The notes below the pieces were generated by a model, which was not told the DNA's origin, searched no databases, and saw only the letters and a program-made list of their open reading frames with translations. 64,000 bases of DNA, taken from Gracilariopsis chorda (Eukaryota > Rhodophyta > Florideophyceae > Gracilariales > Gracilariaceae). A program made the translations under genes and the position numbers. The stretch is taken from assembly GCA_003194525.1 (NCBI GenBank), contig NBIV01000008.1, forward strand, positions 546,152 to 610,151, given 5' to 3'. This document shows, piece by piece, positions 21,101 to 55,853 of the stretch (its first letter is position 1; each line of letters starts with the position of its first letter).

Positions 21101-21160
21101 GTATGGTATATCAGGGATAGTTGATTAAGAGGATGACGCAAGCTTTTGATACAATTTGGG

Positions 21161-25196: not shown

Positions 25197-25658
25197 AAAA
25201 GCCAAAGAACTAAAATGAACGAATGACGACTCTTCAAACCCAATTTTGAATGAATCAAATTTCTCAAAATAATTTCATACATAGCACAGAGCTAGTTTAC
25301 TTGGAACAAAAGACTAGGAGTATACTAGAACTTTCCAAGTTTCTTTGGAGGTAATCATAGGGCCAGACATCAAGAATACCTACCCTCTCTCAGGTGCACC
25401 TGGAATCCAACTATCACCAGTCCAGAGCGATTGCCCCTTCGAATAACAAAATAAAATACATAGAATAGATACATAGCGTTTACCTAACCAATAGCTTTGG
25501 CTTTCCGTCACCTGTTGCCCGGCCTGCTTCCTGCATCGCATGCTCTACTCCACGTGGTACGAAAAGACGATTTACATCACGTGCAACACCTCATCTCCGT
25601 GCACCATAATATTACTCTTCCCTATATCCCACTCCCCCAGAACCCTCCCTACCCCGCC

Positions 25659-28600
25659 ATGATACCCTGTTGCCATCTCCGTTGCACCTTCTATGGTCGC
25701 ACTGCGTTCTCTCTCCAGATTCACCAGCGCAGGTACCCTCATCGACTCACCCCTGACAAACGTCCTGCCTCCTCCACCAACGCCCCAGTCCAATTCCCTC
25801 CAAGGACCACGCGACGAAAATCCGTTCCAAACCTCTCCACTTTCCCTCCTCCCACTCCCTCAAACTGCCCCTCCGACAACATCCCCCTGGCCGGAAATGA
25901 ACCTTATCACATCCAACAGGCCACCTCTCCCTTCAAACACAAGAGGCACACCACATGGCAAGTCATGCCCTCTGTTTAGTCTCCTCCTCAAACCCGCCTC
26001 CCCCTACCTCCTCCCGTTCCCCCTCCCCTCTCCTCAAGAACTCCCATCTCGAGCGACTCGTCCTCTACATCTCCTCCATCGCTTCTTCCTGCAGCACATG
26101 CAAAGCCAACGAACTCGTCTCCCTTCTCGACCACCCAGACTTCTCCAAGTCATCCTTCCAAAAATCCATCTCCTCTGCAAAGCAGTGCATTGCACTCCAA
26201 AACCACCTCATCAGGGAACATATCAACTCCACTGGTTTCCTCCATCTCACAATCTCCGTCGATCACAACTCCTTCTCCGCAAATCTCTTCCAAAAACGCG
26301 CCATAGAAGTCCTGAAGCAACAAAACGCTCTCGCACACTTCAAAAACACCTTCTTCCAACCCGTGTCATAATCTTCACTTTCCTCTTCTTCCACCTCCGC
26401 CTTCGCCCATCTTCTGGCCACAGCCTTCAGAAACAAAGTTGTTCCTGCCTTTAAACAGGCCATCATGCAGTGCCACATCACTGACATCATCTGGTACACC
26501 CCCGAAACAACTGATACGGAATCATTCGTTAGTCCCGTACAGTTGTACTCCGATAAGTCCACAGCCGCACTAAAAAGCTCCTCCATCACCTCCCCTTCCC
26601 TTCAAATCACCCTTATCAACTTCTCCAAAGCATTCCGCGGAAAGTGTATCTCCAAAAACCTCACCCTACTCGGATACCTCCCAACCTCGTGCTCCCCCTA
26701 TTCCTCTCCCTGCGACGGAGACTTCATCCCACATTCGTCCTCCAACATCCCACGCAAAACAAGAATGGACCTCACTGAGCGCGCCATCTCCGCAATCCTC
26801 AATCCACTCCTCTCTTCCGCCCTTCTAGGTTTCTCCTTCTGTGACGTGCACTGGGTACTCCGACACTGCCACCCCATCCTCTCCAGCTACTGCGCAGACA
26901 TCCCAGAGGCAAAGGAAATCCTCGCCATTTCACAAGGAACACGACCACAGCACCCCTGCACAAGATGTACCGTCCCCTGCGAACAACTCTCTCTCAATAC
27001 AAACCCTATCCACTTCCTCACACAATCCCACACTCGAAAAAATCGCAGAGAACAAAACGCTCTCCTTCACGAGTCTGGCAAAGCCCAGCTCGTCCGCAGG
27101 CCCAAGTCACTCGCACCAAAAAGGTACAGGCAACCGGAGCGGTCCCTCTCCCTGGCAAAGAATGCCTCTCTCTTCGAATCTTACGCCATTTTCAACATCA
27201 CTCCACTTCTTTCCTCTTACAACATCTTTGCCTTCGAACCTCTTCACAACTTCCACCTTGGCGTCTTGTAGCTCATCAAAGGCACCGCCATCGAATGACT
27301 CCGCTCCGAATCCCTCTTCACCACAGTCGGCCCCAACAACACCAAACGCTAGTCCCATTCCATCCACACCTCCATCCTCAAACATTCCAACTCCATCCTC
27401 GCCACCATCTAAAATGACTGCCCCGCACCCGGCCTCCACATCGACTTCTCCACCCATAACAACTCCCAAGCCCCCAACGATTTCTTCACCACAGAAGGCT
27501 TACGATGAATGCTGGAAGCGAAGTATTACCGCACTCTAGACATGGTTTTCCCCTTCATCGGCGCCTTCTTCGACAGATGCTGCAAAGAAACCGACTGCTC
27601 CCCCACCACTTCCGTCTTCACCAAGTACACACACCTCGTTCTGTGCGCTATACGATACAGTTTCTCCTCCTAATGGACCGACACATCCCTTCAATCTCTC
27701 CAAAAACAGATCAGATCCTTCAAAGTCACGGACCCTATCACGCCTCCCACCTCGGCACCCTCAAGTTTCATATCCTCGATCACATCGTTGAAGACATACG
27801 CAGATACGGTGGTCTCAACTTCAACGACGCAGGGATCTTCGAGCAAGCTCACGTCCTCTTCAAATCCCAATACTCTAAAACGTCCAAGCGAAAAGCCACC
27901 GCCCATACAGAAACCATCCGTGCTATAGACCTCTTTAGTCTCTTCGAAGACTGGAGTCCACTCTCCGCAGACCCCTCCCTATCCTTCCATGCTTGATCTC
28001 AAACTCAACCGCAACCCCGCAAACCCTTTCTCGTACGTGATGGAAAACATCTTTCGTTCTACGACATCTTCACAGCCGCCAAATACCTTGCATCAACCCC
28101 CGACGCAAGTCCAAAGTTTCTTCAAGAACTGTTCTTTTCAAAGACGCTCTCCATCATCTCAAAACTAGGTGACACCACTCTTCATTCCTTCGTCTCCCTT
28201 TCCATCGAATATCTCAAGCTAAATCCCTCACCGAACTACGTCCGTTGAGCTCGCCTCACCCTCATCAACTCTGCATACGTCGTCGGCAGGTATATCCCAA
28301 CACAAGACAATTAAAACCAAGAACAAAACGAACTCGTCTTGCTAGAACCCTTCGTCCCTCTTCTCCAGCGCATCTTCGCCGTTCCATCTTTCGGAACTTC
28401 CAGATCACCAAAGCTCTCCCATATCCGTTTTGCCGGAAAAAACTTCTCCTCTCCATCCACAACCATTTTATGGGTCTCCAAGCTCATTGCGTTAGGTCGC
28501 TGCAAGCTACCTTCCCCTCTTCAAACTCTTCCACCCCCACTACACAAGAGTTCAATTTCGTACAATTCCTTGAACTCGTGCCACCTCGTGACAATGTCAA

Positions 28601-28890
28601 TATCACCCTCAACTGCGTATTCCTTCAATGGTCAACTGATGACTAGCATAACCACACCACCGATCCAGTTCCCATCTCCAAACCTTCCACCGACGACAAC
28701 GTATCTCCTTTGTTTGGCCTCATTCCTTCCACCTCCATTCTTGGTGCAGTCCATGTCATTCGAGTAAACTACCCCGCCCCCCCCCTTCACTCCTCGTCTT
28801 CACTGGCGCTTTCATCGTTTTTACATCAACCGCTTCTATCGTGAAACTACTTCAAAGCCCTACGCACCAAAATCTACAACAGATCAGTAA
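25659..28890 (+). pseudogene. CACTA/Plavaka-like DDE transposase
   Basis: I chose the ATG at 25659 because it opens on a C2H2-like finger (CCHLRCTFYGRTAFSLQIHQ, then RRYPH), common at the start of this family. The second frame (25955-27271, one stop near 26370) has PVQLYSDKSTAALK, LINFSKAFRGKCISKNLTLL followed by GYLP, HPILSSYCADIPEAKE, the cysteine cluster HPCTRCTVPCEQL and FEPLHNFHLGVL. These blocks appear in this order in EnSpm/CACTA and Plavaka transposases, where the last carries a catalytic Asp (here Glu). A third frame (about 27690-28550) gives LGTLKFHILDHIVEDIRRYG and FEQAHVLFKSQYSKTSKR, matching the family's KfH..dH and E..H..fK..y..tS blocks. The C-terminus ends FYINRFYRETTSKPY before TAA at 28890. 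There are at least three frameshifts and several stops. The plus strand is strikingly pyrimidine-rich. CACTA versus Plavaka/KDZ placement is uncertain. Confidence 0.75.
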
Positions 28891-28912
28891 ACCATCCGTT
28901 CCACCAAAAACA

Positions 28913-30384: not shown

Positions 30385-31326
30385 TTATGCCTCCAATATG
30401 AAGAGTTCCTCTCCTTGCTCCATGTCGACTGTCGCCTCCATCCTAATAAGTTTGTAGTCCATTATTACCCCTGCTATTCGTCCCACGCCCGGTATCAGTT
30501 TCATTCGCAGATTAGCCTCCCTTCTCTTCACGAGGCCATCCAACATGGAATTTAACCCCTTATCCCCTTCCACGCACTTTGGATCGTTTATATACCCTGC
30601 AATATAAGAACAGGCAGGAAGCACCCATAAAACTGGGTTCGCTTGCTTTCCATGCCAATTCGGTAGCTGTTTTCGATGCGGAAGTGAATAAAACTATTGA
30701 CCGTACACATCTATCTCCACCACATACGTCCGGACGCGGTCCTTCGTCACACCCATTAATCCCTCCCCGTAGGTCTTGTGCACTTCTTTACGATTTGAAA
30801 AGTCATGATAAACCAACGTCCCGTAGAAATAGCACTCAACCTCCCCTGCAGCAATTTGAAGAGTTGCAAACACTCTAACACCAGCCTTTTCATGAAGAGT
30901 AGTAGACTTGCCGGCTCGCAACCCATATTGTACCGCCTCCATTGCCAATAGAGATTTCAGATTCTCCAGATTCATTATTTTTTGCAGCTCCCTCGGCCAT
31001 CCATCCAGAGCTTTCTTCCTTCTCAACTTCGCTAGAATTTCAATTTGCCATAAGGTGGAGAGAAAGTCAACAAGGTGTAGGGGAGGAATTTGGTACTGTG
31101 GAAATCCGTCGACAGCCCTCCATAACACGGTGTGCCTGCTTCTTCCCATTGAGAAGGCAGAGGAAACACAATTGGCAATCTTTCTAAGCTCCTGGCTCTT
31201 CTCAATATCCGTTTTCCCTTCCCGTATTATGCAAGCGAAGCGAACAATAGTGGCATGCCTGGCGTGTTCAAAGCAAGCTTTAACCAGTTCACACCTCACA
31301 AACCTCCGATGCTTGGTCAGTCGCAT
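30385..31326 (-). pseudogene. SET-domain (lysine methyltransferase-like) protein
   Basis: One minus-strand frame, open from 31326 to 30385 except for a TAG near 30694. The N-terminal half is unassigned and helical. From about 30,950 come GVRVFATLQIAAGEVECYFY and GTLVYHDFS, which match the start of SET domains (G.GVFA..I..GE....Y.G). After the stop follow CSYIAGYINDPKCVEGDKGL, RREANLRMKLIPGVGRIAGV and YKLIRMEATVDMEQGEELF. These correspond to the IND and N..N segments and the closing a...I..GEEL strand. SET domains transfer methyl groups from S-adenosylmethionine to lysines, usually of histones. The usual NH.C motif is not clearly kept. It is convergent with the transposase and shares the purine-rich minus strand. 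Cargo status within the large element is inferred. Confidence 0.65.
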
Positions 31327-31595
31327 TCACGCCATCGCTGTCAATAATTTCCTGGTAAACATGTCGACCAGAAGGTCTCCGGGCTGACTGAACTGGCAAA
31401 TCTGCTCTTTCAACAGTGCACTACACTTTTCTCCGGTCGGACTCTCTTCCTCGTATACGTCCCGTAGGGGTTTTTAACAGACCACATGAGCATCTTACTA
31501 TTTGACATTGGCGGCACCTGATCCATGATTGCATGATACGCTTGGTATCGCAAAGCAACATAATTGAAGTTCTCATAGTTGAGTATTCGGTGATG

Positions 31596-33566
31596 TTATG
31601 TATAGGGTGATTCAGAACAAAGAGCATGTGCAGCGTATTCAGTAGTATGGTGCAAACGGTAACTTCTTCTTCCAACTTTACCCGTAGTATTACTTAAAGA
31701 TCGTACGAAATGGAGAGGTTGTTCGTCGACCACAATGGAGTAGCGCTTCGTATCAGAGACATTCATGTAGGTAACTTTCCGTAGCACATCCTGCCACAAC
31801 GGTACCTGATCCCACGAGCAGAACCGTATAATATGTCCACAGAAATGTAGAAGCTTTGAAGACCTCCTTGCTGACCTGCTCATGCCCTTCTCGGTCAGAA
31901 CATCGTGCTTGCTGTTATCCAAACAACGCTCAGAACGAGTCCAATATGGTGCTTCGGACAGCAGGAACTGTACCCTTCTTTCAATAGATACCTCGGGTTC
32001 GCCAGACTTGTTGCCGTCAACTTAGATGAGACGCTCCAACTTGCAGTTCTGAAGACGAAAGTTGCAGGACATCTCCTTCTCACAATACTTGTAAGGTATC
32101 ACATCATCCGAAGTCGTATGGTACGGTGGTGCATGAATCCCTGTGCCGTCGAAATCATACGATAAGTTCTGCGACAAAGCAGTTGTCTGCAGTCCTTCAG
32201 TTGCCTTAGGTACCACGTTTCGCAGTACCACGTTCCACGGTAGCACCTTCCGCATCCTTTACGACCTTTTGCTCTTCCACTTCTTCCATCTCACTTTGAT
32301 CGCCACCTTCCACACCTTCCACACCCTCAGCACATTCGTTCCCACCATCAGCTGTACCAGTCTCTACCGGCTCCATAATGATTTCAACGTCTTCTGCAGG
32401 CTTTGGCTTCACATTTTGCTGTAGTTTGACATTGCTCCTATGCAATTCAATGAGCATCAGAGGCTTTATGGCCTCCTCAACCGTAGTGGCAAGAGATTCA
32501 CTAAAGTTCTCAAACTGCAGAGGGAAAAGTCTTGTTTTCGTGATGATGAACCATTCGAGGGCATCCCATTTGCTGGGATCAAAGATGTCGAACAGTTTCT
32601 CTTGTACCACAACATTAGAAAGCTCACCAAAAGAGGAAGCGCTGTATCTACTGGGTCCGGTAGATTGTATCTCCATTTGGTAGCGTTTTGTTCCAAGGTG
32701 GTGACGTTCTTCTCCTCCAGAAACTGTTTGGTACAATCTTTGTGTTGGAAGCCCAAGGAACGTTATGCGATATCGGTGAACACTACATTGATATATTAGA
32801 GTCAAATTTATGGCAAGATCATAACCTCAACGTTGGGAAACCCAAGGAATTGGGCGAAACAATTCCAAGCCCTGGTCACCAGCTGCACACCATAACTGAC
32901 TCTCTGACTCTGGTTTTTGTCCGAAGAACTCAATTTCGAGAACGTCTTAGCTGCCGTGCCCCTTTTTTTCCTCTTCCTACCACTTGCTTTCTTATCCACA
33001 GCAATCTGTTACACCATGGATAACCCAATGACCGGGTCAAAGTCAGTGTAAGGATTTGTGTTAAAAGCAGAAGATTTTTTCGTGGAACCTAGAACACGGG
33101 ACTCGCTAAACACAGATAGCAACACGTTACGGGGGATTCCTTTAAGCCCTTCCGTTTTACAATAAACCTTCCAGGAATCCATTACACGCCTGTCTTTTTC
33201 AAGGTCCTTCACGTCCATCACTCCTGCCATAAGATAGAGTTGACGTAGAGGTCCTCTGAGAGCCATGTTACGGAGCTTGTAGTCCAAATACGAGATGTAA
33301 TCTGGTTCGATGATAGTGGTAAACATTTTCTTGGAAGGGCCATGAGCGCTGCGACTTTGTACCGTGAACTCGACAAAGTTGGTGTGCATCAAACTTCTCA
33401 GCTCATCCACATTATGCCTCGTCACTTCGTAGTCTTTTCAAACTGCAAGATAAGCATCAATGAGCTCTTCAACGCTTCCGTGCATCTTGAATGAACCCGT
33501 TTCCTTCGTGGTTACGGTGGACGCTGCGCCAGAAACCATGATAAATTCTTCTAAGTAAGATCTCAT
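31596..33566 (-). pseudogene. Unidentified gene (about 650 residues) of the cargo element
   Basis: An ATG at 33566 opens a frame beginning MRSYLEEFIMVSGAASTVTT that can be followed to about 32470. It includes ELRSLMHTNFVEFTVQSRSA, YISYLDYKLRNMALRGPLRQ and a basic patch KKASGRKRKKRG that could be a nuclear localisation signal. After a frameshift it continues with WDALEWFIITKTRLFPLQFE, EEAIKPLMLIELHRS and a Glu/Gly-rich acidic tract. After another shift come YEGTG-free but protein-like stretches, including LLHFCGHIIRFCSWDQVPLW and YSIVVDEQPLHFVRSL, ending near 31596. Several stops are present. I recognise no domain. Nuclear location fits the basic and acidic segments. It is the next minus-strand gene upstream of the SET gene. 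Confidence 0.45.
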
Positions 33567-34123: not shown

Positions 34124-34756
34124 ATCGACAAAAAAATTATGGAATTCTTTTTTCAATGCAGTTAGTTGGGAGGGGAATTGCAGGTGTGCTTTTTTGACGA
34201 CAATGGATGTCATGAAACGTCCTAAATACGTTCTAAAGTGCTTATGCCCATCTCTTTGGAAACGAGCAGGCGTGGTGACGAGAGCATTTGACGTCAACGG
34301 GTGCTACAGAACATTAAAGTACTCAGCCATGGTTTCGATTGGGAATAAGAGGAACTCGCGATCACGGAAACGGACTCCAAGAAAAGCTGTTTCACCGAAG
34401 AGCCGTTTTCCAAATATGCCGACAATGCGAGGCAAAGTGAAGAGCTGGGGTGCCTCCCGAGCTAGCAACCACCCTGAGCCGTAAATTGGGGGCAATACGG
34501 GTAAGGTGCTTAATGACGATGCGGAGGTCAATCTGTTCGTACGACTTGGGAGTAGTGATGGGAAGGTGAAAGTAAAAGAGGCTAAATTGCGCGGTGTGGG
34601 TGTTGCTGGGGCACTAGGGACGGGACTCTGTCGCTCACTACACGACCATCACCTTTCCTCTAAGCAGAGACCGGGAGAAGACTTGTTCGTTATCTTTAAG
34701 ACGAATATTTCGTCAAACCAAGATGAAATTAACCGTATGTCTTCGGTGGTCCCGAG
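34124..34756 (+). other. Plus-strand open frames upstream of the gypsy A insertion
   Basis: Two overlapping plus-strand frames (34074-34484 and 34506-34756) have protein-like but unassigned sequence, e.g. NKRNSRSRKRTPRKAVSPKS. The second runs directly into the gypsy A insertion site. They may be the N-terminal part or leader of the ParB/dioxygenase gene that resumes at 45402, but frame continuity across the site is not demonstrated. Confidence 0.3.
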
Positions 34757-34761
34757 GAACC
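34757..34761. repeat. Target site duplication of gypsy A (GAACC), left
   Basis: GAACC here is repeated at 45397-45401, directly outside the TG...CA ends of the two LTRs. It is a perfect 5-bp duplication. Confidence 0.85.
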
Positions 34762-35291
34762 TGCAGTAGAATACTACTCCAGAGGCCAAATGGGGAATTA
34801 GTACCTAATAGGGGTAGTGGCGGCAGAGTACCAGCCACTCGGGGGACTGTTCACTAGGGTCTAGTTGTGTCGTGAGCACTTTCTGAGTTGCAGGCGCAAT
34901 GGGTGGGCGTTATCTAAGGTCCATACAGGTCGGGCGCACTCACAAGGATGGCTTGGAAGCCTGTGTCCTCTAGAAACTTCGGGGCGACTAGAGCACGGAG
35001 ATGGTGCTTGCCGTTACTCCTCAGTGGCAGGCTGCACTCGAGCCAAATAATATAGTTGGCAAAGCGCTCTACACCACCGGTAACTACTACTAAATAATTA
35101 AATAGAATAGTACACTATTCTATCGTGCACTATGTCGCAGTGCCAGGTCCACCGGAGGTCACACATCAGATCACAGTTATCTCCGACTCACGTGGCTAAT
35201 ATTGAAACGGGCCGGTGGTACTCTGGTTGTTCTTCCACCGTTTGGGCACTACATCTTGCCTGCAGTCTGAACTTGGGGGTATTGTACTACA
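34762..35291 (-). repeat. 3' LTR of gypsy A
   Basis: 530 bp, starting TGCAGTAGAATACTA and ending GTATTGTACTACA on the plus strand. It aligns throughout with 44876-45396 at about 80 percent identity by eye. Shared blocks include GGGTCTAGTTGTGTCGTG, GGATGGCTTGGAAGCCTGTG (one change) and CACTATTCTATCGTGCA. The minus strand has an AT-rich stretch (ATTCTATTTAATTATTT) that could include a TATA-type promoter. Confidence 0.9.
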
Positions 35292-35304
35292 TGCTCCCTC
35301 CCCT
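35292..35304 (-). other. Polypurine tract of gypsy A
   Basis: The minus strand reads AGGGGAGGGAGCA immediately before the 3' LTR, the expected plus-strand primer. It independently supports the LTR edge and the minus-strand orientation. Confidence 0.75.
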
Positions 35305-35526
35305 AGTTTCTGCGGCTTTGGCGAAAGAAACCGTCGGCCAACTTCTCCCTGACGCCCATTTACGTGTACTCCTGTTTTGAGAGTGATAGAGATAGCTGAA
35401 ATAGCGCTGGCCACGATCCCAATGGTCGATTGACTCGTTTAGCACCCCCCCTACTAGGCCTTAGTAAGGGCTGGGAAGGGACATGGCTCGCCCATTGGTC
35501 ATGCCCGCGTTCCTGTTCCGTGTCAA

Positions 35527-37645: not shown

Positions 37646-38382
37646 GTTCGCGCTGATATTCGTGCTTGAGGCACTGAGGCTTTACTCGAGTCCCATGGTC
37701 TGTGTTTGCTGAGTTCAAACCTTACACCTTTGGGCATCATCCACGACTTTTAGACCCATTGGGACCCTTTTTTGAACTTCAACTACGGGGGTCTGAAGTC
37801 GCTGCGATTCCGTTCGGCAATTGTTCGGCCTGAGAAAGAGGATGAAGGGGGTACCCTCGGCGGCGGTTCAGGGGCGCACCGTGGCACGCGCGCAGTCCTA
37901 TTGGTTGGAGGCGGTTTGTGGCGAGTGGCGAAAATATTCTCTATGTCCATAATCCCCCCCCCCTCCTCCCTAAGTGCACGCTCCGTGTGGCACATGGTGG
38001 GGTAAGGCCGCGATATGCTTAGCAAGGACGTCCGCAGGGCTGCCCTGCCAAACAGCTTGTTTCCCATGATTGGCTTTTAGTAGAGAGACGCTTTTGGTGT
38101 CAAAGTGCGATTTGCATTTCGCAGACTGTTTGGGTACGGTTTGTTAAGGCCAGTTCTGTGGGTCCGAAGTTGGCGTTGTCACTGGTCTCTATGCGGGCGT
38201 GTGCAGGAAGAAAGAGCGAGCGGCGTGGCCAGGAGGCGGATTGCTCATGCCCCGTGGCACGTGCCTACTGGCAAGTGTCCTTTCGGGGCGCCTTGGCAGT
38301 GAACCTGTTGTCAGGGATACGCTCTTTTCACAGATCACGCTCCTTGTAGTCCATTTTGTTCCATTAGCGATTATTAAAATCG
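37646..38382. other. Spacer between antisense gene and integrase of gypsy A
   Basis: No recognisable coding sequence on either strand; the two gene ends converge here. An eight-C run near 37955 and generally GC-rich sequence are the only features. A transcription end for both genes would be expected here, but I see no clear signal. Confidence 0.3.
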
Positions 38383-41300: not shown

Positions 41301-42043
41301 GCACTGAGCTTATGATAATCAATGCAAAACCGTACGGTCACATTTTTCTTGGCCACAAGGACAAAAGAGCTTGTTGATTTGGCCTCATTGGGTGGGGCAC
41401 GTTAACTTACTCCGGCGGTCCGCATCTTCTCCATCTCTTTCACCACTATTTCTCTTCCTTTCAGGCCTGTCCTACTCGGGCGCTGGAACTGCGGCGCGGC
41501 TCCATCCTTGAGGGGGATGTGGTGTTTCGTCGCATCTATCTGTCCCATTTCGCCACTGTACATTCCGGCAAAGTCCTCCAAGACGTCAATGGCCTGTTTC
41601 CAAGACGGCTTGAAATCCTCACCGAGGTTAACCTCTTTCTCCCAATTGGCTACTGATTATATAATCGACGGCAGGTTCCCGAGCTGCACCTTCATGAGGG
41701 CCATTGGGGCACGTAGGGCAATGCCAACTACCGTAACGTTCAGATGCCTGGTGGCTTTATCGCTAAAATTGCTCATCATAACTGCGAATGGCCTACTATG
41801 TACAACATTCATCACTCCATTGGCCATCAATGATAAATGCTTCGTGACCAACTTGGGGTGATTCTGAAAAGACACAATATTTGAGGAATTTGAGGATTCG
41901 CACACTGCAGTGGCCGCTACTTGGGTCATCGGCGGTATTACTATCGCCTTGGCCAAGGGTACCTTATTGGACACCGTCGGCTTGGGGAACTTTGGTCTCG
42001 AGGGGGTGGCTTCGGGTGCCGGGCGTGCTCCAAGAATTGCCAA
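38383..42043 (-). pseudogene. Gypsy A pol: protease, RT, RNase H, integrase, chromodomain
   Basis: Protease region at 42043-41657. RT at about 41640-40780: VRFCIDYHKLSAVNECQTYP, then FTRMPFGLMNAPATFQWAMD and LVYLDDVIIF, so the YLDD catalytic pair is intact. RNase H starts within 40769-40494 (PFIVDKDTSATQVGCALLQE). The zinc-binding domain is in 40136-39615 (HPGGTRMYQTLKRFFYW, GCAACAK). The integrase core at 39618-39142 has LYLLTDNDAQFVSKFFEDVC for the second Asp and TAYHRQTNGKSDRFNRTLAS, where the usual catalytic Glu is replaced by Asp. The C-terminal piece at 39141-38383 ends in a chromodomain-like YFVDRIVSAALHGKVEVVYK followed by VHWDGYG. In-frame stops occur, e.g. after NLPSII near 41657, in the block before RAPPNEAKS and in the YAYCGY block of RT, so the copy is inactive. 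Confidence 0.9.
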
Positions 42044-42592
42044 TGGAGGTCGTCAATGAAATGCAATTCATCTTTGGCCAGGATAGATAGGTTTTACATA
42101 TCTATCAATAAAACTCGCCCCTAGGATACCTTCTGCCCCGCGGTCCTGACATACAAGAAACCGAGTCCTGATCTTCAGGTGACCCATTTGGTTGTAAAGT
42201 GGGATGAACCCACGGATACCCATTGGTCGGTGCGACGCGTCCGTCACCCTTTACAACTTCCTTTCTTGCAGCATTCTCTCCCAGCCCAACGGAAAGTCTT
42301 AAGGATGTAACAGGTTTGGGCCTGCACCCATATCCAACACCGCAGTGAAAGTCTGCGTGGTGTTCATCTGCAGTCCAAGGGTTCCGTGTACTTTATAATT
42401 CTCTTCCATACGACACATATTTTGTCCTCAAGGTCTTCCCACTGGTGTACGGCGTATGCCTGACTGGAGTACCGATAATTCCTGTCCTTCATTCCAACTT
42501 CTTCTTTTCCTCTCGGGTCTTCCGGTCCGTTGTAATGAGGCAGTTGCTGTGAGAAGAACTGCACGCGTCTATGCGTCCCTCCAGTCGTTTTC

Positions 42593-44749
42593 CTATGGCT
42601 CCAGTGCCACAGGATGGTTCTGATGGTCATGGGGCTGGCCCACATCGACAGGTTCGTCCAGCGTATTGACCTGAGGTTGGTTCACGGGGGGGGTCGTAGG
42701 GAGTGTTACGTACTTTGAACACCACTGGGTCCCTGTGGTCTTCTGGCTAACTGGCCTTCGGTAATATACTTCCACGCGGGGCACTCGATAGTTCTCCTCT
42801 CTACGGGCCATGACGGCCTTACGGATGTCCTCAGGCATATGTGTTACGCAGTCACATGGGCGGGCCAAGGACAGGCAAATGAAATACGGTTGACTAGACT
42901 TCGTAAAGATATTCTTTCGCGGGGCCACTGGAGACAGTTTGGGAGTAGCCACAGCGGATGGTGTGGTCGTCCCTGAGGTTAGAACAGATGGTGCACCAGA
43001 TGGGGCCGAAGAGAAGCTCACCGCGAGTGCGTTCGCAGTTTCAGATTGTCCATATGCTGAGTCCGTATCAGTCTGCAACTCGACCAGATGGGCACTTCCT
43101 CCCTTCGCCAGGGGTCTGGCGCGTCCCCTGGTATCCACATCACCCGCACGGAGCGAGGTCCTATAGGTCTTCCCGTATCTTTTGACGAACGTCACCAGCT
43201 GGCGTACCGAAAGGTCTGGATGGGCTGTGTAGTGGTTACGAACGTTAGTCCGTATGGGTGGTAACAGACCTGCGATAAAGTATCGCTTAAACCGAACTTC
43301 GGAAAAAACGTTTCCGCAGCGGCAGGCACTTGCCCAAAGTTGGTAAGCGAGGTCCGTTTCGGTGACATTGGAACCTTGATGGTATCCAATGACGTTCTCA
43401 TAGACATCCATTATGTGGTCATCGGAGGTATAGGATTCCAGTAAATAATGAACAACCTCAGGATAGTTTCTCAAGAGCTCCCTGTCACGGGCATCTACAG
43501 GATTGGCCAAGCCAGATATCTGGGCAACCACATGGTCTTCTGCCTGGCCACTGAGAAAGAACTCAAATAAATACATTGCAGCTCCTTCATGGATACGGTT
43601 CTGGTCACAGGCGACTTGGAACGAACTCAAGAACCTGAGTACTGTGATGGGATCGTTCCCAGAAAACTTGTCTTGGATGGTCACTTGCATCCTCTCAGCC
43701 CACCAATATTCTTACCGACAGATAAGGTGTACCCCTTGGACCGATCCAACAGGTGGTACGTGTCCACGTCCAAGACCTTCTAGAAAAGCTCATTAGTCGT
43801 GGTTATCGGTCTGAGGCGCCGAACGTCTGCCTCATTAGCATCGGTATCAAAGGTGCTGGAGTAGTCCGAATGGTCGTCATCACTGGAGTTCGAGGGGTCT
43901 CTCTTCCGGCGGCTTGACCTCTTTGACCTTCGGTTTATCTTCTTTTTCCTCTGGTCTTCGGCACTTCGATAGTTCCTCGGGACAGGTCTTCACTGCCCCG
44001 ATGGTATTCCGTGGCATGCCGAATGCCGTATTGACCAATGGGTTGATCTCCTTCGCGGCCTCTCTGCCTCTGATGTCTCTCTACCCCAGGCGTTCGATGG
44101 TCCAATGGACGTGCCTGATGGTTTCTCAGGCGAGGGGCTAATTCCGTAGCTGCTCCCTGGGGTCCGGTTTGGTCTGGCCGGTGGAAAACTGACGCTATAA
44201 TTTGAGAAACAGCTCGAATGCTGTAGAATTGGCCTAACTGGCGTGTGATTACCCACTGGATGGTCGTGGCGATTGACTCCACTAGGAAATCCGAATAAAC
44301 GACCTGAAGAATTAGTCGGTCAGCCAACACGAAGAGGTGGTTGCGAAGTGCCCTATCTAACTGGTGCCTTAAGAATTGCTCCACTTCGTCTTCACAAAAA
44401 GAAATGAGTTGCGGCGATAGGAGAGCGGCAACGCCGTCCACCATTTGGGCATTGGGGGCGAGTGCGGCTGAGTCCTGACGCTGCAGTGCAATATTCTTTT
44501 GGTCGACTGGCTGGTTCACTGCTCGACCCTCTCACAAAGGCCAGTGACCAATTGCAACTCCCGTATGAGTCGTTCGAGTTTGTCCACTGGGTCAGTCGTA
44601 CGTCCACTGGAACGGCTGCGCGTGCTCTTGTGGTCACTTGCACTGTCCCCTCGGGTAGGTACCGGTGCAGGAGTGTCCGAAGCGGCCACGGCGGCTGCTA
44701 CGGCTCCTTGTTGGGCGTCTGTTGTGGGATTAGGGTGTTGGTTATCCAT
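42593..44749 (-). pseudogene. Gypsy A gag
   Basis: The likely start is ATG 44749, 127 bp inside the 5' LTR: MDNQHPNPTTDAQQG, an Ala/Ser/Thr-rich tail. Two frameshifts lead through 44519-43935 (LISFCEDEVEQFLRHQLDRA) to the main open frame 43690-42593. That frame carries the capsid-like Retrotrans_gag region: KFSGNDPITVLRFLSSFQVA, YLLESYTSDDHIMDVYENVI and FKRYFIAGLLPPIRTNVRNH. Total length would be about 700 residues. The capsid-like segment matches the gag of element B (NHYFTGEDPIMVLDFLSRFA), placing A and B in the same clade. A zinc knuckle was not obvious. Confidence 0.85.
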
Positions 44750-44857
44750 GAGGTCAGGGTTGCTTTCAAGTCAGAAACAACGACAAGTAGTCCAATGGTA
44801 AAAGTCCTATTCGATTCTCCTCGGTCTTAAGTTCCAAACGTCTGTCCTTGTAGGCGT

Positions 44858-44873
44858 GTAGGTCGGGAGACCA
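44858..44873 (-). other. Primer-binding site of gypsy A
   Basis: On the minus strand, two bases after the 5' LTR, the sequence is TGGTCTCCCGACCTAC. It starts with the TGG that pairs with tRNA CCA. Element B has TGGCCTCCTGACTTAG in the same position, differing only by C/T exchanges over most of its length. The primer tRNA is not identified. Confidence 0.6.
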
Positions 44874-44875
44874 TA

Positions 44876-45396
44876 TGTAGTAGAATACTAGTCCAAATGC
44901 CAAGTGGGGAAATAGTACCTACTAGGGGTAGGCACGGCAGAGTATCATCCACTAGAGTGACAGTCCACTGGGGTCTAGTTGTGTCGTGGGAACTTTCTGA
45001 CGTGCAGATGCAATGGGCGGGCGTTATCTGAGGTCCCTGCAGGTCGGGCGCACTCGTAACGATGGCTTGGAAGCCTGTGTCTGCTGGAACCTTGGGGGCG
45101 ACTAGAGGACGGAGGTCACGCTCGCCTCTACTCTTCAGTTGCTGGCTGCACTCAAGCCAACTAATATAGTCGGCGAGGCGCTGTAGACCACCGGTAGCTA
45201 CTCCAAAAAAAATTAAAAAACATTCTACACTATTCTATCGTGCAGTGCCAGGTCTACTGGAGGTTACACTTCATATCACAGTTATCTCCGACCCATGTTG
45301 CTAATATTAACACGGGCCAGTGTTGCTGTGGTCCTTCTTCCACATCTTCGGCACTCCATCTTGCCAGCCGTCTGGCCTTGGGGCTATTGTACTACA
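44876..45396 (-). repeat. 5' LTR of gypsy A
   Basis: 521 bp, TGTAGTAGAATACTA ... CTATTGTACTACA. Partner of 34762-35291. It is followed by the GAACC duplication at 45397-45401. Confidence 0.9.
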
Positions 45397-45401
45397 GAAC
45401 C

Positions 45402-48400
45402 GCCCGCAACTTTGAAAGAGATGGTTTCAGTGGGTTTGTATGCCTGGGACACTGCGATGATGAGCGTCAAGAATGAAGGCGGGGAGGGGAATGAATCAGT
45501 CCCACTGCAGTCAGGAGCAAGTGTGAAGACTGTTCACAAAATAAAAGCTTCCGGGACAACTGCAAGACAAGTCAAGCACCTTCCCGCGGTTGCTGGTACA
45601 CCGTGGAGCATTTTGGTGGGCAAGGCGCCGGTGTAGAGCCTTGAGAGCAGTGGAGAGGCTCCCGTGAAATCCCTTCAGGGCGGTGGAGGAACATCAAGAT
45701 CTCTCGGGGACGGCTCTGGAAAACGAGAAGGCCCTGAAGGAGGAGCAAGCTCCAATGATGACGTCATAGGTGTGCCTCTACTCTCCAGGAACGATCTCGA
45801 TCCGGAGGAGAGGATTTTATATGATGACGGTGATGATGTTCCCTCGGAAGAGGTGGATAACAGTTTGGGGGTCCTAGAAATCAATCGAGATGATTATAAT
45901 CAGCACAATTGCGTAATAGATATCCACAATATTCGATTTCCGAAGAAGATGGTTCGTTCGAAGAATGACAACATCTTCGAGATACTTCGAACAAAATGAG
46001 GAAATTCGGATGGCTCCCTTCTCTTGGGTTGAACGCAGAGGCCCTGTTGGAGAATGTGCCAGTGCGTGACGCTATTGATGCGAGTAGGGGTTTCATCCTT
46101 CCTGTAGTTTTGGTGGACGGCTTCCATCGACTGAGTGTTCTACTGGACCTGGAGTAGGGAGGTGCATAATGGCCACGAATTACTGCTCGTTTGAACTTCA
46201 TGCTTTGAGATCGGAAAGACGGGCGGAGAATGACCTTGAATGAGGTATTGTGGCTGTGGAACACGTTGAATGATATGAGCTCCAATGTTCTGGTGATGTC
46301 CTTCTCAGATAAAATTCATATTTCCGTTTCGTTTATTCCTAATGGCGTAGAACAGGACAGGTTTGATCTTTCAAAGCTTAAAACAAGCTAAATCACGGGG
46401 TGGTTATGGAACAGTGAGACAAAGGGGAAAGAATGGATCATACGTCATTTCAATCGTTATTCTGCTCTTGCTCTGAAGTTTGCGTGGAATCCCGGTCTGT
46501 TAGAGTTCTTCGATGGGGTGTGGGAGGAGACGCCTCAAATTGGGATCAATCATGTGTCTAGTGATATTCTGCTCGGATTTTCAGGGGATAAGTTTCCTTC
46601 TACTATCCAATGTCTACAGGCGCTTGTTTGAGTGAACTCAGCGGCCATTGTGAAGATAGGACCATTTGAGGGTTTCCGAAAGTACTTCTCCGACTGTGCT
46701 TCTAGATCCTATGACTTTGTAGTGAGCAGGAAAGTTCTATGAAGGAGAAAAAGAATGTGTAGGAAGTGATGAATACTAAGGCTACGATCGAAGATTCTAA
46801 GCAGGCTGTGTTAAATTATATCCTATCTCGTCTGGGAAAGTGATACACGAAAGGAAAACGCAGTTCACTGGAGTACAGAGTGAGTGATAAGGTGAAAGAG
46901 GTTCGTAGGACATTTTACAGCGCTCTCCCCGGAATGCAGGGACAAGATAATACTGCTGCTTCTCACTCTGCGGCCGATTTGGAGGTGATGGAGTTGCTTG
47001 GAATGAATGAAGAAGCTGCCCAGGAGCCTCAGAACGCTGACCAGGAACGTCGAAGAAGTAAGCGAATCTCTAAAAAACGTAGAGTGGTGCTTCTGGATGA
47101 AGATGAAGATGAAGATTGAGTTGATTATGAGCCATCGGTTAAGAGGCAGAAAGGATTGAATCGTAAGAGGACTGAACCTGGTTTGAAGCGACCTGGCTTT
47201 GGTATCTCTCAGGAGGTGGTGGAAGTGCTGCGTACTATGGAAAAGAGAGATTTGAAGAGGTGGTCGACAGCACAGGATATCATTGTCCTCGAGTCAAGCG
47301 AGGATGAATCCCAGGAGGACTTTGTGGATGATGGTGAAGACGAGGCAGAGGAGCAGCAAACTGCAGGAAGCTTAGAGGATAAAAATCGTGAAAGGCTTCC
47401 AGCTGTCAAGTCCGCCAGGAAACCTGGCTATGGAAGCGGATAGGTCTTTGTTGGACCTGGTATACTAGTTGCCGAGTGGGTGGTCTGGAAGCGGAGATGC
47501 AGTGAAGCATCCCCATCCATGGATGCAGAGGATAAATCTGAGGAAGGACCATCGAGCGGAGTGCGTACCTCCTGATGACTTGTGAATGTTTCATCATGCT
47601 GTGTACTGGCGGGCGTCACGTAACATGCAAAAAGAGATGGTTACTATGAAACATGCGGTGCTGGGGGTGAAGATGCCGTCATTAGGAACTGCATCGAATG
47701 AAGCGGAAACATTGTGGATGGCCGCTTTTGAAAGAGAGGACTTGGCTCGTGTTTACTTTTCAAAAAGGAGAGTGGAGCTGTCGGAGAGAGGGTTTTGTGT
47801 GTTGAATAATTTGGGACAGATGAAGGCATGGCGAGTGAAGCTTCGAAAATGGGTCTGAAAATAGACGAAGATGTAATAGGAGAACTAATGGACTTCTTCG
47901 AACGCGACTTTGTTTCGCAACCGGATCTCACAAACGAAGCGAATCGTGTTTCCTGGAATATGATCATCAATGCAGGAGCTTTAGAGGATTTTAAGAAAGG
48001 TATCAAGGCAGTGGGCCGTTTCATCGCAGCCAAACAAGGGATTGCGGATAGAATTGAGGAGCTGGAAAACGGTGAGTTTCTTGCTCGGAAGAGAGCCATG
48101 TTAGATGCAAGACTTGGTCAGATTGCAGCGGCTCTGGGATTGCCTGAAGATGGAGCATTGTATGCTCCTCACAAGGCTGCCCGTATCCTTTGTACTGGAG
48201 AGGATTGTCCGAGGCAGGTGCTCCACACGGATTTCAGGGGTTTGACTGAGAATGACTGGTTGAGGAATGTGAACCCGGTGTACTTTGGAATGTCATCGGG
48301 ACCGGATGCGTTCATGATTTGGGGTTTTGAACGTTTTCATACTCTGACAACGACACAGGACAACTTGAAATAGCTTTCCGCGTCTATTATGATGCGGAAG

Positions 48401-48837
48401 TTCATGGTTCCACCGTTTTCTGTGTTTATTTGAGGAGGGGATGTATTTCATGCTGAGGTTGGGTATAATGATCCAATAGCGAAAGGCTATTGCATGCGAT
48501 GCCATATGTACTTTTACCCGAGGGATACAATCTCCGAGATGCAGGGCATAAGGAGAGCGGTTTCTGCTCTCCCTTTTTTTATCATTAACAGGACCGGGGC
48601 GATATATCTGAGGCACGAGAATGGGTAGAGGAGCGGGGAAATGAAGCTGCAAATACAGATGTAGTTATGCAAGAAGCCGAAAGGGAGAATTCGTCGGATG
48701 GGGAGTACGATGAGTATATACTGAAACGAGTGGAAATGAACACTGATGGAGATTATAAGCAGGAAGATGGCGATGAGATTGAACTGGTTCCTAAAGGAGG
48801 AGAGGGTCTGATAGGTGGGGACGATGAAATTGATTGA
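45402..48837 (+). pseudogene. ParB-like domain plus 2-oxoglutarate/Fe(II) dioxygenase protein
   Basis: The frame emerges from the gypsy A insertion point. It is Gly/Ser-rich, then acidic (45664-45999), and shifts frame in an A-run at 45995. The region CVIDIHNIRFPKKMVRS, GWLPSLGLNAEALLENVPVR and VVLVDGFHRLSVLLDLE resembles the ParB/sulfiredoxin fold (ID..I......G...P..v.DG.HRl). MTLNEVLWLWNTLNDMSSNV and more follow to about 46740, through several stops. A linker (46739-47579) carries a basic nuclear-signal-like RRRSKRISKKRRV and acidic runs. The C-terminal domain (47828-48559) has LHTDF (His 48224, Asp 48230), MVPPFSVFI...GDVFHAEVGY (His 48449) and MRCHMYFYP (Arg 48497), the metal- and 2OG-binding set of a dioxygenase. 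An acidic tail runs from 48592 to TGA 48837. In total it is about 1,100 residues, dead by stops. Substrate unknown; oxidation of DNA bases or histone residues is plausible given the ParB-like domain. Confidence 0.65.
48560..48591 (+). other. Possible 32-bp intron
   Basis: Between the dioxygenase core and the acidic tail, the sequence starts GTTTCTGC, runs through CCCTTTTTTT and ends ATTAACAG. Removing exactly these 32 bases joins the upstream frame to the downstream frame in phase zero. A GT start, a pyrimidine tract and an AG end look like an intron, though it is very short. An ordinary frameshift is the alternative in an already broken gene. Confidence 0.35.
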
Positions 48838-49829
48838 TAATGATAAGTTAACTAGTGATATACGTTGGTTAAATACGGTCATTGCTTTTGGATCTCTATA
48901 GTGAGTCTTTATAGTGAATGGGAGAGGTTTACTTCGATGGGGACTACTTTTTGTGCAGCTTCGTTCGAATAATGCGTAATAGTGAAGAAATGATGTCTAC
49001 AAAGCTTTAGCTCTGTTATATTCCATAAAAAGAGGTCGAAAAGTATGAGAATAAAACTGGTGGATGGGTATTTTGGAGGGGAAAATGAAGAACGTTACAG
49101 TGGGCAACTCATATGAAAGACGAATGGATGTAAAATAGAATATGAGATTATGATTGAAGGTGCTTGTACGGTTCTGAAGGATCTTGTTGTTATAGCCAGC
49201 TACCCCGATCGACCACTCTGTTGATATCGAAAGTACTGGTTCTTTTCATACATTACTTTAGTGTGACGTGCATGATGTATGAAGAAGAGTGAAGACGGTG
49301 AATGCATTATCGTGTAGAGGTTCAAAGTATTGTTTTTTGTGTTTGGAAGGGGAAGGGTTGAGCAAATGAGAAGATGATATGTTGGGCATTTAAGCGATGA
49401 GAAAGTTGGTTCAAGTGAGGAGGTGGCACATTCATTAACGACTCTTGAACATTCATTCGCGACTCTTGAAGATTCATGTCATTTCAGAACACCCACACGC
49501 AGCATGACTACTATTTGCAGTTTTCGGTCAATGACTGCAAGACCCGTATACATGTGGACATCTTTCCACATGAGAGGGTGATGAGGTTTGATAAAGTACT
49601 TGAAATTCGGTATAACAAGGATACAGGGAAGGTTGTTGTGCGAAGGGCGTAAAGGTTGCTGACTGCAGGCGTTTTGGAGGATGTGACGAAGATATAGGAC
49701 GTTCTTGACGCTATACCATCGTATAATCATACCTTAACGAATGCAAACTTTTTGCACGTGCTGCACGGCAGTACACATTTAAAAGAGTATCTGGAGAGTG
49801 CTTCAAACCTTTCTAAAGCCCTGGACATA
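48838..49829. other. No gene assigned
   Basis: Intergenic, or the decayed start of the membrane-protein gene. Short plus-strand frames near 49,480-49,650 (FRTPTRSMTTICSF, YMWTSFHMRG) look weakly protein-like. A short repeat, CGACTCTTGAA..ATTC, occurs twice at 49439-49475. Confidence 0.3.
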
Positions 49830-50668
49830 CGTTAAGCTTTAATGCGTGGTACACATATGCGTTTATGTTTTCATCAGCCATTGGGGTTCTTTTTGGGGGT
49901 TTGAAACCAGTTTTGATGCCTTATGTGGTGGATGATGCTCGGATGTCTCCGAAGATGTTATTTGTGGTGATATTGGAGACGGGTTTTGCCTTTGCTTCTC
50001 TTCGATATTGTTTTCTCCCTGCATAGGAGGTATTTTGGTTCATTGCCCTTTGTGAATATGAGGGGAAGGGAAGGGATAGGAGGGTTTTCTGTGATTCGAA
50101 ACCGACTACTTGGATTCACAGTGGGAGGTCTGGTGCCGTTGAATGCTGGAATTTTTGCTACCTATCTTTTCTTGGGAACACCCATGTCGCTTAGAACGGA
50201 GATCAAGACTCTGTTGCATTTTTCAGTGGTGAGTTCATTTCTGGGGCTCTTTCATATGTTGCGGAGCGTCTGACGATGTTCTTAGTGAGTAAGGACAGCA
50301 TTAAAAATGAGATAGAGCTTCCATATTTGCAGAGAAGTATTGGTGAGCTGATTATGGGTGTGTGCGGGACTATATCCGGGGGTTTGAAGAAGGTGGTGGG
50401 GATAAAAGATGGTGCGGCTGCTATTAGGCTCTTTATTGGAAGTGTGTTCCCTGTGGTATTTACGTATTTGATATCTACATTTCTGAGGGAGACTTCGTTG
50501 CAAAATGCAAGGAAACTGGGGCCTGTAATAGAGAATATTACCTATTTTGTGTTGTTGCTTTTAGGTGTTGCTGTGAATATGTACTCAGAGTATAATTTTG
50601 AGAGGTATGTTGCGAGTCTAGGAGAGCAACCGAGGCCTTTTGGGTCTTGTTCTCGACCATCTCTTTAG
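49830..50668 (+). pseudogene. Polytopic membrane protein, unidentified
   Basis: The first frame (from about 49830, no ATG at the edge) gives hydrophobic segments YAFMFSSAIGVLFGGLKPVL and MLFVVILETGFAFASLRYCF, then a stop. The next frame to 50273 gives LLGFTVGGLVPLNAGIFATY and further hydrophobic residues. A third frame (50276-50668) gives ELIMGVCGTISGGLKKVVGI, LFIGSVFPVVFTYLIST and ENITYFVLLLLGVAVNMYSE, and closes at TAG. The three join into about 280 residues with some six membrane spans. I recognise no family. It lies downstream of the dioxygenase gene on the same strand within the cargo element. Confidence 0.45.
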
Positions 50669-50871
50669 ATAGCATTGTAGATCTATCTCTACATACTTAG
50701 GGCGACAGAGATGTAAAATGTCATTATAGATAGGAAGTTTCTGATTTTTGGTGAGACACGTGGTATGGCGGTGGGAAATGGCGCGAAGACGGTGGATTAA
50801 AAAAATGGGGATGGATAAGTAGTTGGAGTGTGCTCGCTTGGCGTTAGAGGGTTGGAAACGGGTGCACCATT

Positions 50872-51677
50872 GTGGTGGGGAGTGTGGTAGCCATTTGGAG
50901 CGAGTCCGTTAATGATGAGGAGCTCCTGGCGTTGTTGGATGAAGCGGAGAAGAAAGACGTCCCCGAGACGCCTCTGCAGGAGAAGAGGGATGAGAAAGGG
51001 CACGATGATGGTGAAAAGGGCGAGGGAAAGGCAGTTGTTGGGCTTGGGGAGCTTAGAGTTGGAAAGATGACGGGGGGAGATGGTGGGGAGGGAGGTGTGG
51101 GCAAGAGTGGTCGAGGAGGAGGGGTACGAAGAGGTGGAGGGAGATGAATGGATCAGTTTTACCGCAATGTGAAAGAACTGTTGAGGAGCGTGGGGGAGGG
51201 CTAAAAGAGCGTTTGGATGAGTGTATTTAGGAGGTTGTCGTGGAGATGTGAGGGATGGTTTTGAGTGCGTTGGAGGAAGGAGTGCCGATAGGTGCTGTGG
51301 CTGAGTTGCGTAGGAGGGCGAGGGAGGCTGGGGTGTGGGCAGAGCAGCACGTCGATGTGGTTGTGCCGTGTGTAAGAGAGAAACTGGGGAGGCTGTGGAA
51401 GGAGATTGAGGAGTTGCGAGGATGAGTTCTGGTGTTGGAGAAGTGGATTTTACTGGTGGATAGGGATGTGCATCTAGTCGAGGATATGCAGAAGAAGATG
51501 TATGCAGGTGGAGGAGAAGGTGGGATAGGAGGTGCTGTCGGGAGAGGATCTCCGGTTACTCCTGAAGGTCAAGGTGTTGTGAGAAGGAGGTTGCAGGAGA
51601 AGGGCGAAGGAGGGTTGGAGGGTAAGAGTCGGTTGAAGAGGATGCATGGAATGATGGGAGGGGGAGAGGAAGAATAG
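50872..51677 (+). pseudogene. Acidic/coiled-coil protein remnant
   Basis: The first frame (50872-51147) contains NDEELLALLDEAEKKDVPET followed by a Gly/Lys/Glu-rich tail. After a shift, a second frame (about 51230-51677) has LSALEEGVPIGAVAELRRRA, REKLGRLWKEIEELRG and VDRDVHLVEDMQKKMYAGGG, heptad-like and probably coiled-coil. It ends in Gly-rich sequence and stops at TAG. The plus strand is very purine-rich here, which favours such composition by chance, so I am cautious. It is the last plausible gene before the right end of the insertion. Confidence 0.35.
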
Positions 51678-51905
51678 TGATGTTTAGGAGTATGGTTGAG
51701 GCTGTTAGGACTACGGAGAAAATTTTGGAAGGGGAGAAGGATACGTGAATGGGTGGTATTGGAATCTGGTGCGTGGTACGTCAGGTGTATGAGAACGGAG
51801 ACAGCTGCCAGGTGAGATCCTCAGGATGAATTGGAGGTCAAACTAGGGCATTAGAAAGTTTGAAATTCAAAAGATGGAAATAAATATGTTAGTTTGGGTT
51901 GCGTG
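51678..51905. other. Short tail region before the hairpin
   Basis: No gene visible. Composition changes here from purine-rich to mixed. Confidence 0.3.
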
Positions 51906-51948
51906 CTCGAAATGGCGCTGGCCGTGGAGCGGCCAGCGCGATTTTGAG
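51906..51948. repeat. Strong hairpin near the right end of the large insertion
   Basis: Two 19-bp arms, beginning CTCGAAATGG and ending CAGCGCGATTTTGAG, are inverted around the 5-base loop TGGAG. The inner ten base pairs, GCGCTGGCCG against CGGCCAGCGC, are perfect and GC-rich; the outer nine have two mismatches. It stands about 215 bp from the right target duplication, in the otherwise non-coding end of the element. It could be a subterminal hairpin recognised by a transposase, or a transcription-end or recombination signal. Confidence 0.7.
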
Positions 51949-52163
51949 ATCTGTATCCAGCTTTTAGTGGAGAATGAACCTACTCCAAACCTGAAACTAG
52001 CGATGTGCAGCGCAGGTGACGGAAGGCTCGCAAAGATATGGAAGCGTGAATTCCAAAAAATGTTTTTTTAACTTGGCAAGCGCCGTAAACTAGCAGAATC
52101 TATTATTTTTGTAATATTTATGAGCTTTTCCCTAACAAACTTGCGATTTAGCAGCTCTATCTA

Positions 52164-55852: not shown

Positions 55853-55853
55853 A

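Follow-up and report, generated by a model that had tools for sequence, protein, structure and literature searches.

Transposons that carry TET or SET genes have already been published, so elements of this kind are known. Dam-like adenine methylases are encoded by DIRS-type retrotransposons, which are retroelements with a tyrosine recombinase. The TET-bearing PlavakaB transposons of Agaricales (Kojima 2025, PMC12730594) combine a Plavaka transposase and target-site duplications (TSDs) of 2-3 bp with epigenetic-enzyme cargo, and the TET enzymes borne by fungal transposons are proposed there to counter silencing. SET domains have been reported on the Phytophthora DNA transposons HarbingerS and MuDR (cited in PMC12730594) and, joined to the transposase itself, in primate Hsmar1-SETMAR. 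Here we analyzed a stretch of 64,000 nucleotides from the red alga Gracilariopsis chorda (contig NBIV01000008.1, or C8, positions 546152-610151; "the window" hereafter), and found that positions 25163-52183 are one decayed copy of a large multi-copy Plavaka-type DNA transposon, related to CACTA/EnSpm elements. Besides the transposase, the family encodes a DNA methyltransferase (MTase) fused to a SET domain, a cargo that we believe, with a probability of about 0.72, to serve self-marking or anti-silencing of the element.

A multi-copy Plavaka element and its ends

We searched the genome of this alga (91.3 Mb in 1081 contigs) at the DNA level with the left part (25197-34761; 28 places scored of 307 candidates) and the right part (45397-52163; 33 loci scored of 145 candidates) of the interval. 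The right query end was reached by 32 of the 33 scored loci (C1 within 5 bases), the exception being C184, which stops early. The left query end coincided within 2 bases with the start of the match in 19 of the 28 scored places; the other nine match the right part of the query, and one of them is the continuation of copy C50. C50 is co-linear with the entire window element, lacks the nested retrotransposon gypsy A, and has approximately 1.28 kb extra at window position 30399/30400. Such co-linear copies, C50 included, occur at many places in the genome and show that the interval is one element, as the first-pass annotation had proposed when it placed the transposase, a SET gene, a "ParB-dioxygenase" gene and a membrane gene in a single mobile unit. 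Its estimate of about 16.3 kb after removal of gypsy A also agrees with the measured net length of 16,381 bp. In window orientation the gene order is transposase (+), coiled-coil-like gene (-), MTase-SET gene (-), a palindromic intergenic region, ParB-like gene (+) and an optional membrane gene (+). The features are:

25161..25162, no strand: left member of the 2-bp target duplication, reading TA (AA stands at the right flank, 52184)
25163..25185, plus strand: degenerate left terminal inverted repeat (in the family, CGTCGGTGTTCTCG..ATGCTAG), from aligned copies
25659..28887, plus strand: Plavaka transposase gene, decayed, mapped from the 1160-residue stop-to-stop frame of copy C31
28979..30398, minus strand: coiled-coil-like gene (an 821-residue frame in C31)
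30399..33566, minus strand: N6_N4_Mtase-SET fusion gene, decayed here (PF01555 found in the C336 copy, SET in the outside relative P0003)
30388..31326, minus strand: SET-domain part of the fusion (frames 30388-30693 and 30697-31326), from open reading frames and alignment with P0001-P0004
33988..34123, no strand: degenerate inverted repeat between the divergent MTase-SET and ParB-like genes
34330..34761, plus strand: ParB-like/candidate-dioxygenase gene, 5' part, upstream of gypsy A
34762..45396, no strand: gypsy A, a long terminal repeat (LTR) retrotransposon nested within the ParB-like gene, LTRs 81% identical
45402..48834, plus strand: ParB-like/candidate-dioxygenase gene, remainder, mapped from copies
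45892..46404, plus strand: candidate ParB/Srx-like motif region (VDGYHR in C31), from the motif, without profile support
48179..48556, plus strand: candidate 2-oxoglutarate (2OG)-Fe(II) dioxygenase motif region (HTD ... GDVFHAG ... R in C31), from the motif, without profile support
49394..50668, plus strand: predicted membrane protein gene, optional, from its hydrophobic sequence
52162..52183, minus strand: right terminal inverted repeat, reading TAGCATTCCGAGAACACTGACG in the window and including GCATTC

The ends had earlier been placed at two copies of GCATTC. The copies, however, align past GCATTC, for 20 bases at the right end and 34 at the left, into an inverted repeat of the form CGTCGGTGTTCTCG..ATGCTA. 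This terminal inverted repeat (TIR) is about 21 bp long and begins CGTCGGTGTT; the right terminus was observed in all 30 right-half loci that were cut out. GCATTC is therefore part of the TIR and the true ends are 25163 and 52183. As a target duplication the hexamer was rejected: it occurs 19 times on the plus strand of the window, and the occurrence at the right end sits within the TIR. The expectation of TIRs, with ends definable by aligning copies, was borne out, but the duplication is 2 bp and not 6-8 bp. The 2-bp flanks are identical in six of eight paired copies (C46, C63, C1, C7, C114 and C230) and differ in C6 and C50; the chance of six such identities in eight is about 1.5e-6 (binomial, assuming equal base frequencies). 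The window copy was left out of this count; its own flanks are TA on the left and AA on the right, so that its right TSD copy is decayed. When the window flanks are joined at TA, they read SYNKNPV followed by LRHSEPKLPILVTTDAS of RNase H in a single gypsy reverse transcriptase-RNase H frame, the transposon having inserted in this region of a minus-strand gypsy element. The joined frame has two stops 13-16 residues upstream of the junction, so the gypsy element at the host site is itself decayed. This reconstructed empty site supports the ends; it is not independent proof of the TSD, the joint having been chosen by the analyst.

The transposase assignment of the first-pass annotation (CACTA/Plavaka-like) is confirmed by a match to PF18759 above the cut-off of 26.3 bits, both in the window (55.8 bits, E 5.8e-15) and in C31 (76.6 bits, E 2.7e-21). 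The 2-bp duplication lies within the 2-3 bp of Plavaka elements. The termini, CGTCGG..CCGACG, show the same pattern as CATCA..TGATG of PlavakaB with purine changes, without being identical, and are not of the PlavakaA type (TGT..ACA). No KDZ-type transposase was found, Plavaka being the sole transposase family matched by the scanned genes of the element.

The copies fall into two subfamilies. The window copy belongs to an old one, in which divergence from the column majority is 0.6-4.2% in 15 of 17 right-half copies; C50 departs by 8.1% and the window copy by 11.5%. A young subfamily is 73% identical to the window copy across 15.4 aligned kb, and its members match C31 at 99-100% identity, in stretches of as much as 9.3 kb on the left side (287 candidates, of which 22 were scored) and 8.25 kb on the right side (184 candidates, 30 scored). 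C31 (L063, L064) is the one young copy analyzed in sequence; its contig ends before the right TIR, and it has a frameshift in the MTase-SET gene and a stop in the ParB-like gene. Open frames are instead spread over copies, with 1160 residues for the transposase (C31), 1065 for MTase-SET and 1417 for the ParB-like gene. Repeat-induced point mutation was rejected as the cause of decay: across the 17 right-half copies C-to-T changes are least frequent at CpA, and CpG shows an excess of about twofold. C53 was considered as a full young copy and discarded, since 3.9 kb at its expected right end are unlike C31. This stretch carries a gene resembling Ulp1/SUMO proteases (L065 2-1963; PF02902, E 1.6e-4), and may be a right half acquired by exchange or belong to a different element.

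Many copies are internally deleted. Among the 33 right-half loci, six are continuous, 12 have a common 1.5-kb deletion of most of the membrane gene (which is lost in others too), eight have a common deletion from the last third of the ParB-like gene, including the candidate dioxygenase region, to near the end, and seven have other or partial structures. Because the breakpoints are common to many loci, the deleted forms spread after the deletion, which argues against a strict requirement in cis for the membrane gene or for the C-terminal third of the ParB-like protein. Five of the eight ParB-truncated loci (C134, C286, C212, C56 and C273) have a PF01555 match at the expected place. Young copies also include several internally deleted classes with common breakpoints (e.g., C64, C37, C232 and C284), which suggests amplified non-autonomous derivatives. 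Copies consistently devoid of cargo, which would have spoken against a single element, were not the rule, notwithstanding these derivatives.

Transposase and methyltransferase are strongly linked across the genome. PF01555 gave 150 places (150 scored of 175 candidates) and Plavaka 114 (123 scored of 133); for 73 of the 150 PF01555 places there is a Plavaka place no more than 12 kb away, where chance would predict about 3%. In 71 of these 73 pairs the MTase is downstream of the transposase on the opposite strand, at 2.1-6.4 kb in 70 cases and at 12 kb in one. Similarly, 34 of 43 ParB-like loci (50 rows, of which seven were set aside as further fragments of a locus already counted) have a divergent MTase 2.0-4.3 kb upstream. 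We note that 150 PF01555 places is a very large number by the standard of fungal genomes; the 77 without Plavaka may belong to other elements. A second Plavaka family (C12, L072, and C228, L073) also carries the MTase; the C12 protein is 40% identical to P0001, one of the outside relatives described below, and the C228 MTase frame stops before SET.

Several nested or neighbouring LTR elements in the window would fit a chance assembly, in which independent nested elements and host genes merely share the interval. Gypsy A is flanked by a 5-bp duplication, GAACC (34757-34761 and 45397-45401), and is absent in the copies compared with the window element; it is the only subsegment found with a duplication of its own, so that the interval does not resolve into separately inserted pieces in the strong form of that idea. 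The occurrence, at many unrelated sites, of co-linear copies that end in the same TIRs, the stereotyped geometry of 71 of 73 pairs and the low nonsynonymous to synonymous substitution ratios (dN/dS) of the cargo all count against such an assembly, which is refuted for the main genes. The membrane gene and the frame at 50800-51555 may still be passengers of this sort; as an account of the whole, chance assembly is extremely improbable. Further LTR elements interrupt or surround the transposon, among them a pair at 5026-22724 (80% identical, about 17 kb apart), with a similar LTR at 55853-56232.

The methyltransferase-SET fusion and the ParB-like gene

The gene first annotated as a SET-domain gene does contain SET, but it is not SET alone: it is a fusion with an N-terminal N6/N4-type DNA methyltransferase (PF01555). 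The PF01555 profile has no match in the decayed window copy itself. An 808-residue open frame of C336 matches positions 1-216 of the 221 of the profile (57.1 bits, E 3.1e-15; cut-off 26.7), followed by the start of SET, and frames of 1065 residues free of stops are present at the MTase in C745, C53, C332 and C241. In PDB the MTase part matches the sequences of the bacterial adenine methyltransferases DpnA, CcrM, MboIIA and RsrI. Four relatives from outside the genome (P0001-P0004; 7999 candidates scored from a large protein set) keep the fusion, with 958-1082 residues and 71-25% identity; against the two C31 frames, P0001 shows identities of 88 and 95%, the 88% including a frame-shifted tail. 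All four score above the PF01555 cut-off and have the DPPY motif and the EIF/ELF..Y motif of SET. The SET profile (PF00856, cut-off 22.4) is spanned over 104-105 of its 105 positions in all of them, the three that score below the cut-off covering the full 105, with 32.3 bits in P0003 (E 1.4e-7), 20.5 in P0001, 17.8 in P0002 and 18.7 in P0004. The S-adenosylmethionine-binding motif is FAGTFS or FAGSFS in three of the four and CAGTYS in P0003. A viral origin of the fusion was considered and rejected: among 90 pattern matches in viral contigs, five code for proteins related to the MTase part, and the frames in the three of them that were read (L067-L069) are 226-319 residues long and stop shortly after the MTase motifs, with no room for SET, one of them ending at the contig end.

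Comparison of C31 with one old copy each gave dN/dS values of 0.28 for the transposase, 0.16 for the coiled-coil-like gene, 0.21 and 0.15 for two pieces of MTase-SET, 0.14 for the ParB-like gene and 0.30 for the membrane gene; these are single pairwise Nei-Gojobori (NG86) estimates at dS 0.5-1.3, and the old copy in each pair includes some post-insertion decay. They suggest that the cargo genes have been maintained by purifying selection in all tested frames except 50800-51555, where a value of 0.95 indicated no selection and led us to reject the frame as a gene. Two of the three genes previously left without identification could thus be assessed: 28979-30398 appears real and 50800-51555 does not. 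The coiled-coil-like C31 frame has no Pfam match, and the window lacks here the 1.28 kb that C50 retains. The membrane gene, with no Pfam family above cut-off, likewise looks real, although it is missing in many copies.

The ParB-like gene is open in several copies (1062 residues in C1; 1417 stop-free residues in C550 and C204), and its labels rest on motifs. A VDGYHR-type motif is typical of ParB and occurs in 0.12% of shuffles of the same protein; a loose HxD..GDxFH..R pattern is typical of 2OG dioxygenases and occurs in 9.6%, so it is not significant alone. Between subfamilies, 40-residue blocks are 40-60% identical in the worst linkers and up to 88% near both motif regions, the blocks with VDGYHR and HTD being 68-70% identical and that with GDVFHAG 88%. 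Profile and sequence searches did not bear out the name "ParB-like/dioxygenase". There was no credible match in Pfam, PHROGs, NCBIfam or PDB sequences, nor among 7998 and 8000 scored candidates from a set of 5.8 billion proteins; an 11-member alignment of copies and fragments gave just four unrelated Pfam families, in one member each (E 0.04-0.22). PF02195 did not match the gene at E 10, nor the genome, where controls matched in 11 of 14 cases; PF12851 (TET/JBP) had no Pfam match to the gene and none in the genome, where its controls failed too. PMC12730594 places PE-type TET at a great distance from the known TET/JBP enzymes, so that a remote TET/JBP relation may exist. The lack of database matches and the frequency of the 2OG pattern in shuffles would fit a protein that is neither ParB nor dioxygenase, structural, DNA-binding or otherwise of a new family; the rarity of the VDGYHR-type motif in shuffles and the conservation around both motifs speak against it, and we give this explanation somewhat less than even odds.

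Between the divergent MTase-SET and ParB-like genes, C31 has a palindrome of 47+47 nucleotides with 94% complementarity (L064 799-892). Of 16 old copies, 15 have an inverted repeat with arms of 14-50 nucleotides within the 1.5 kb upstream, compared with a single 12-nucleotide repeat in 16 coding stretches used as control. By eye, the beginnings of the arms are alike in both subfamilies, and the number of units varies among copies. The palindrome could be a regulatory or binding site, or a small inserted element. C31 has additional inverted-repeat arms beside it (L064 891-926 and 994-1029).

Proposed role of the cargo

In the mechanism that we propose, the transposase would mobilise the element by cut and paste and the MTase domain would methylate an exocyclic amino group of the element DNA, most likely adenine N6 given the DPPY motif. 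SET would methylate a histone lysine nearby, the two domains acting jointly on the chromatin of the element, and the marks would shield the element from host silencing by keeping it open to transcription or by identifying it as self. The divergent ParB-like protein may act on DNA or chromatin in the same pathway, possibly as an eraser, and the membrane gene would be an optional passenger. That such an element writes its own chromatin state, as suggested in the first-pass annotation, becomes more plausible given the MTase-SET fusion. By analogy, anti-silencing or self-marking appears the likeliest function of the cargo, because permissive chromatin in eukaryotes is linked with N6-methyladenine (6mA), the product of a different enzyme family, and because the TET enzymes of fungal transposons are proposed to act against silencing. 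According to PMC12695648, 6mA deposited by MT-A70 enzymes, a family other than PF01555, marks permissive chromatin in many eukaryotes, and the AMT1-6mA pathway is reported lost in Dikarya; PMC13297926 calls the 6mA situation in Dikarya unresolved. If its host were a Dikarya fungus, MTase-SET would also be a candidate writer there of adenine or N4-cytosine methylation.

Several observations weigh against this proposal. No copy was found intact in all genes, and the window copy is thoroughly decayed. SET scores of the copies in the genome itself are under the Pfam cut-off (best 17.3 vs 22.4), motif I of the MTase, FAGTFS, departs from the usual FxGxG, and C12, of the other Plavaka family, has DAPY and a SET domain cut short; some members, judged on such motifs, may be inactive. 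If MTase-SET were inactive, its low dN/dS would still want explanation. In addition, 77 of the 150 PF01555 places have no Plavaka match within 12 kb, and 41 of the 114 Plavaka places have no PF01555 match within that distance. The window copy is among these 41, probably since its MTase is too decayed. Because contigs end and copies are decayed, the unlinked cases are not clean absences; Plavaka families devoid of the MTase may exist, as may MTases in a different setting. Finally, eight of the 33 right-half loci spread after losing the 3' third of the ParB-like gene.

The same truncated loci bear on a second possibility, that MTase-SET regulates transposition itself, in its timing or in copy control through methylation of TIR or promoter, and does not counter silencing. 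Dam methylation controls the transposition of bacterial IS10 and Tn5. A bacterial type of MTase domain, with matches to DpnA, CcrM, MboIIA and RsrI, its retention in 71 stereotyped transposase-MTase pairs and the PF01555 match kept in place in five of the eight truncated loci would all suit such control. It leaves the fused SET domain unexplained, however, and SET points to chromatin; we consider transposition control unlikely, if well worth keeping in view.

A third explanation turns the proposed marks around: MTase-SET would put repressive marks on the element and its copies, a self-restraint limiting damage to the host. The bdelloid protein N4CMT, in which PF01555 is combined with a chromodomain, deposits N4-methylcytosine at transposons, according to PMC8885841, and is an example of DNA amino-methylation coupled to silent chromatin. 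In old copies C-to-T changes reach 4.3% at CpG compared with 1.6-2.5% before A, C or T, and this approximately twofold excess indicates that the old copies were probably cytosine-methylated. The CpG signal, however, indicates 5-methylcytosine, which PF01555 enzymes are not known to make. The catalytic motif is DPPY here and SPPY in bdelloid N4CMT (PMC8885841), and the young subfamily is highly amplified. Self-silencing is thus, in our view, quite unlikely.

Our preferred reading, anti-silencing or self-marking by MTase-SET, could also be extended into a complete kit for writing, spreading and erasing. MTase-SET would write linked DNA and histone marks; the ParB-like protein would nucleate at the palindrome as at a parS-like site and spread, its dioxygenase-like C-terminus would erase host marks, and the element would maintain a chromatin domain of its own. 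We regard this fuller scheme as doubtful and rather improbable.

Comparison with known systems

A single protein joining a DNA methyltransferase to a histone-methyltransferase-like domain, apparently selected in a recently amplified family, would link DNA and histone marking, and the MTase-SET family would make transposon self-marking testable. No transposon-borne DNA methyltransferase-SET fusion was seen in searches of the open-access literature. The DIRS-type elements offer a likeness, a mobile element with an adenine-methyltransferase-like domain as here; they are not known to have a SET fusion.

The fusion sets the element apart from each of the described systems. It shares with the TET-bearing PlavakaB transposons the transposase family, the short duplication and an epigenetic cargo, and the PlavakaB termini CATCA..TGATG (PMC12730594) resemble CGTCG..CGACG here; the cargo differs, being here an amino-methyltransferase-SET fusion and a ParB-like gene with no TET/JBP match. 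ParB has no occurrence, and no amino-methyltransferase-SET fusion was seen, in the portion of PMC12730594 available. Phytophthora HarbingerS and MuDR, as cited there, also place SET on a DNA transposon, and their transposase class differs; in Hsmar1-SETMAR, again of another transposase class, SET is joined to the transposase, while here it is joined to the MTase. For none of these three SET-carrying transposons is a joint SET-DNA methyltransferase mentioned in the accessible parts of the sources. Bdelloid N4CMT is, like the gene described here, a captured bacterial-type PF01555 enzyme with a chromatin domain in a eukaryote; it is, however, encoded by the host and combines a chromodomain with SPPY (PMC8885841), in contrast to a transposon gene with SET and DPPY here. 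A DNA methyltransferase-SET fusion on a Plavaka element, beside a conserved ParB-like gene, did not turn up in the literature searched.

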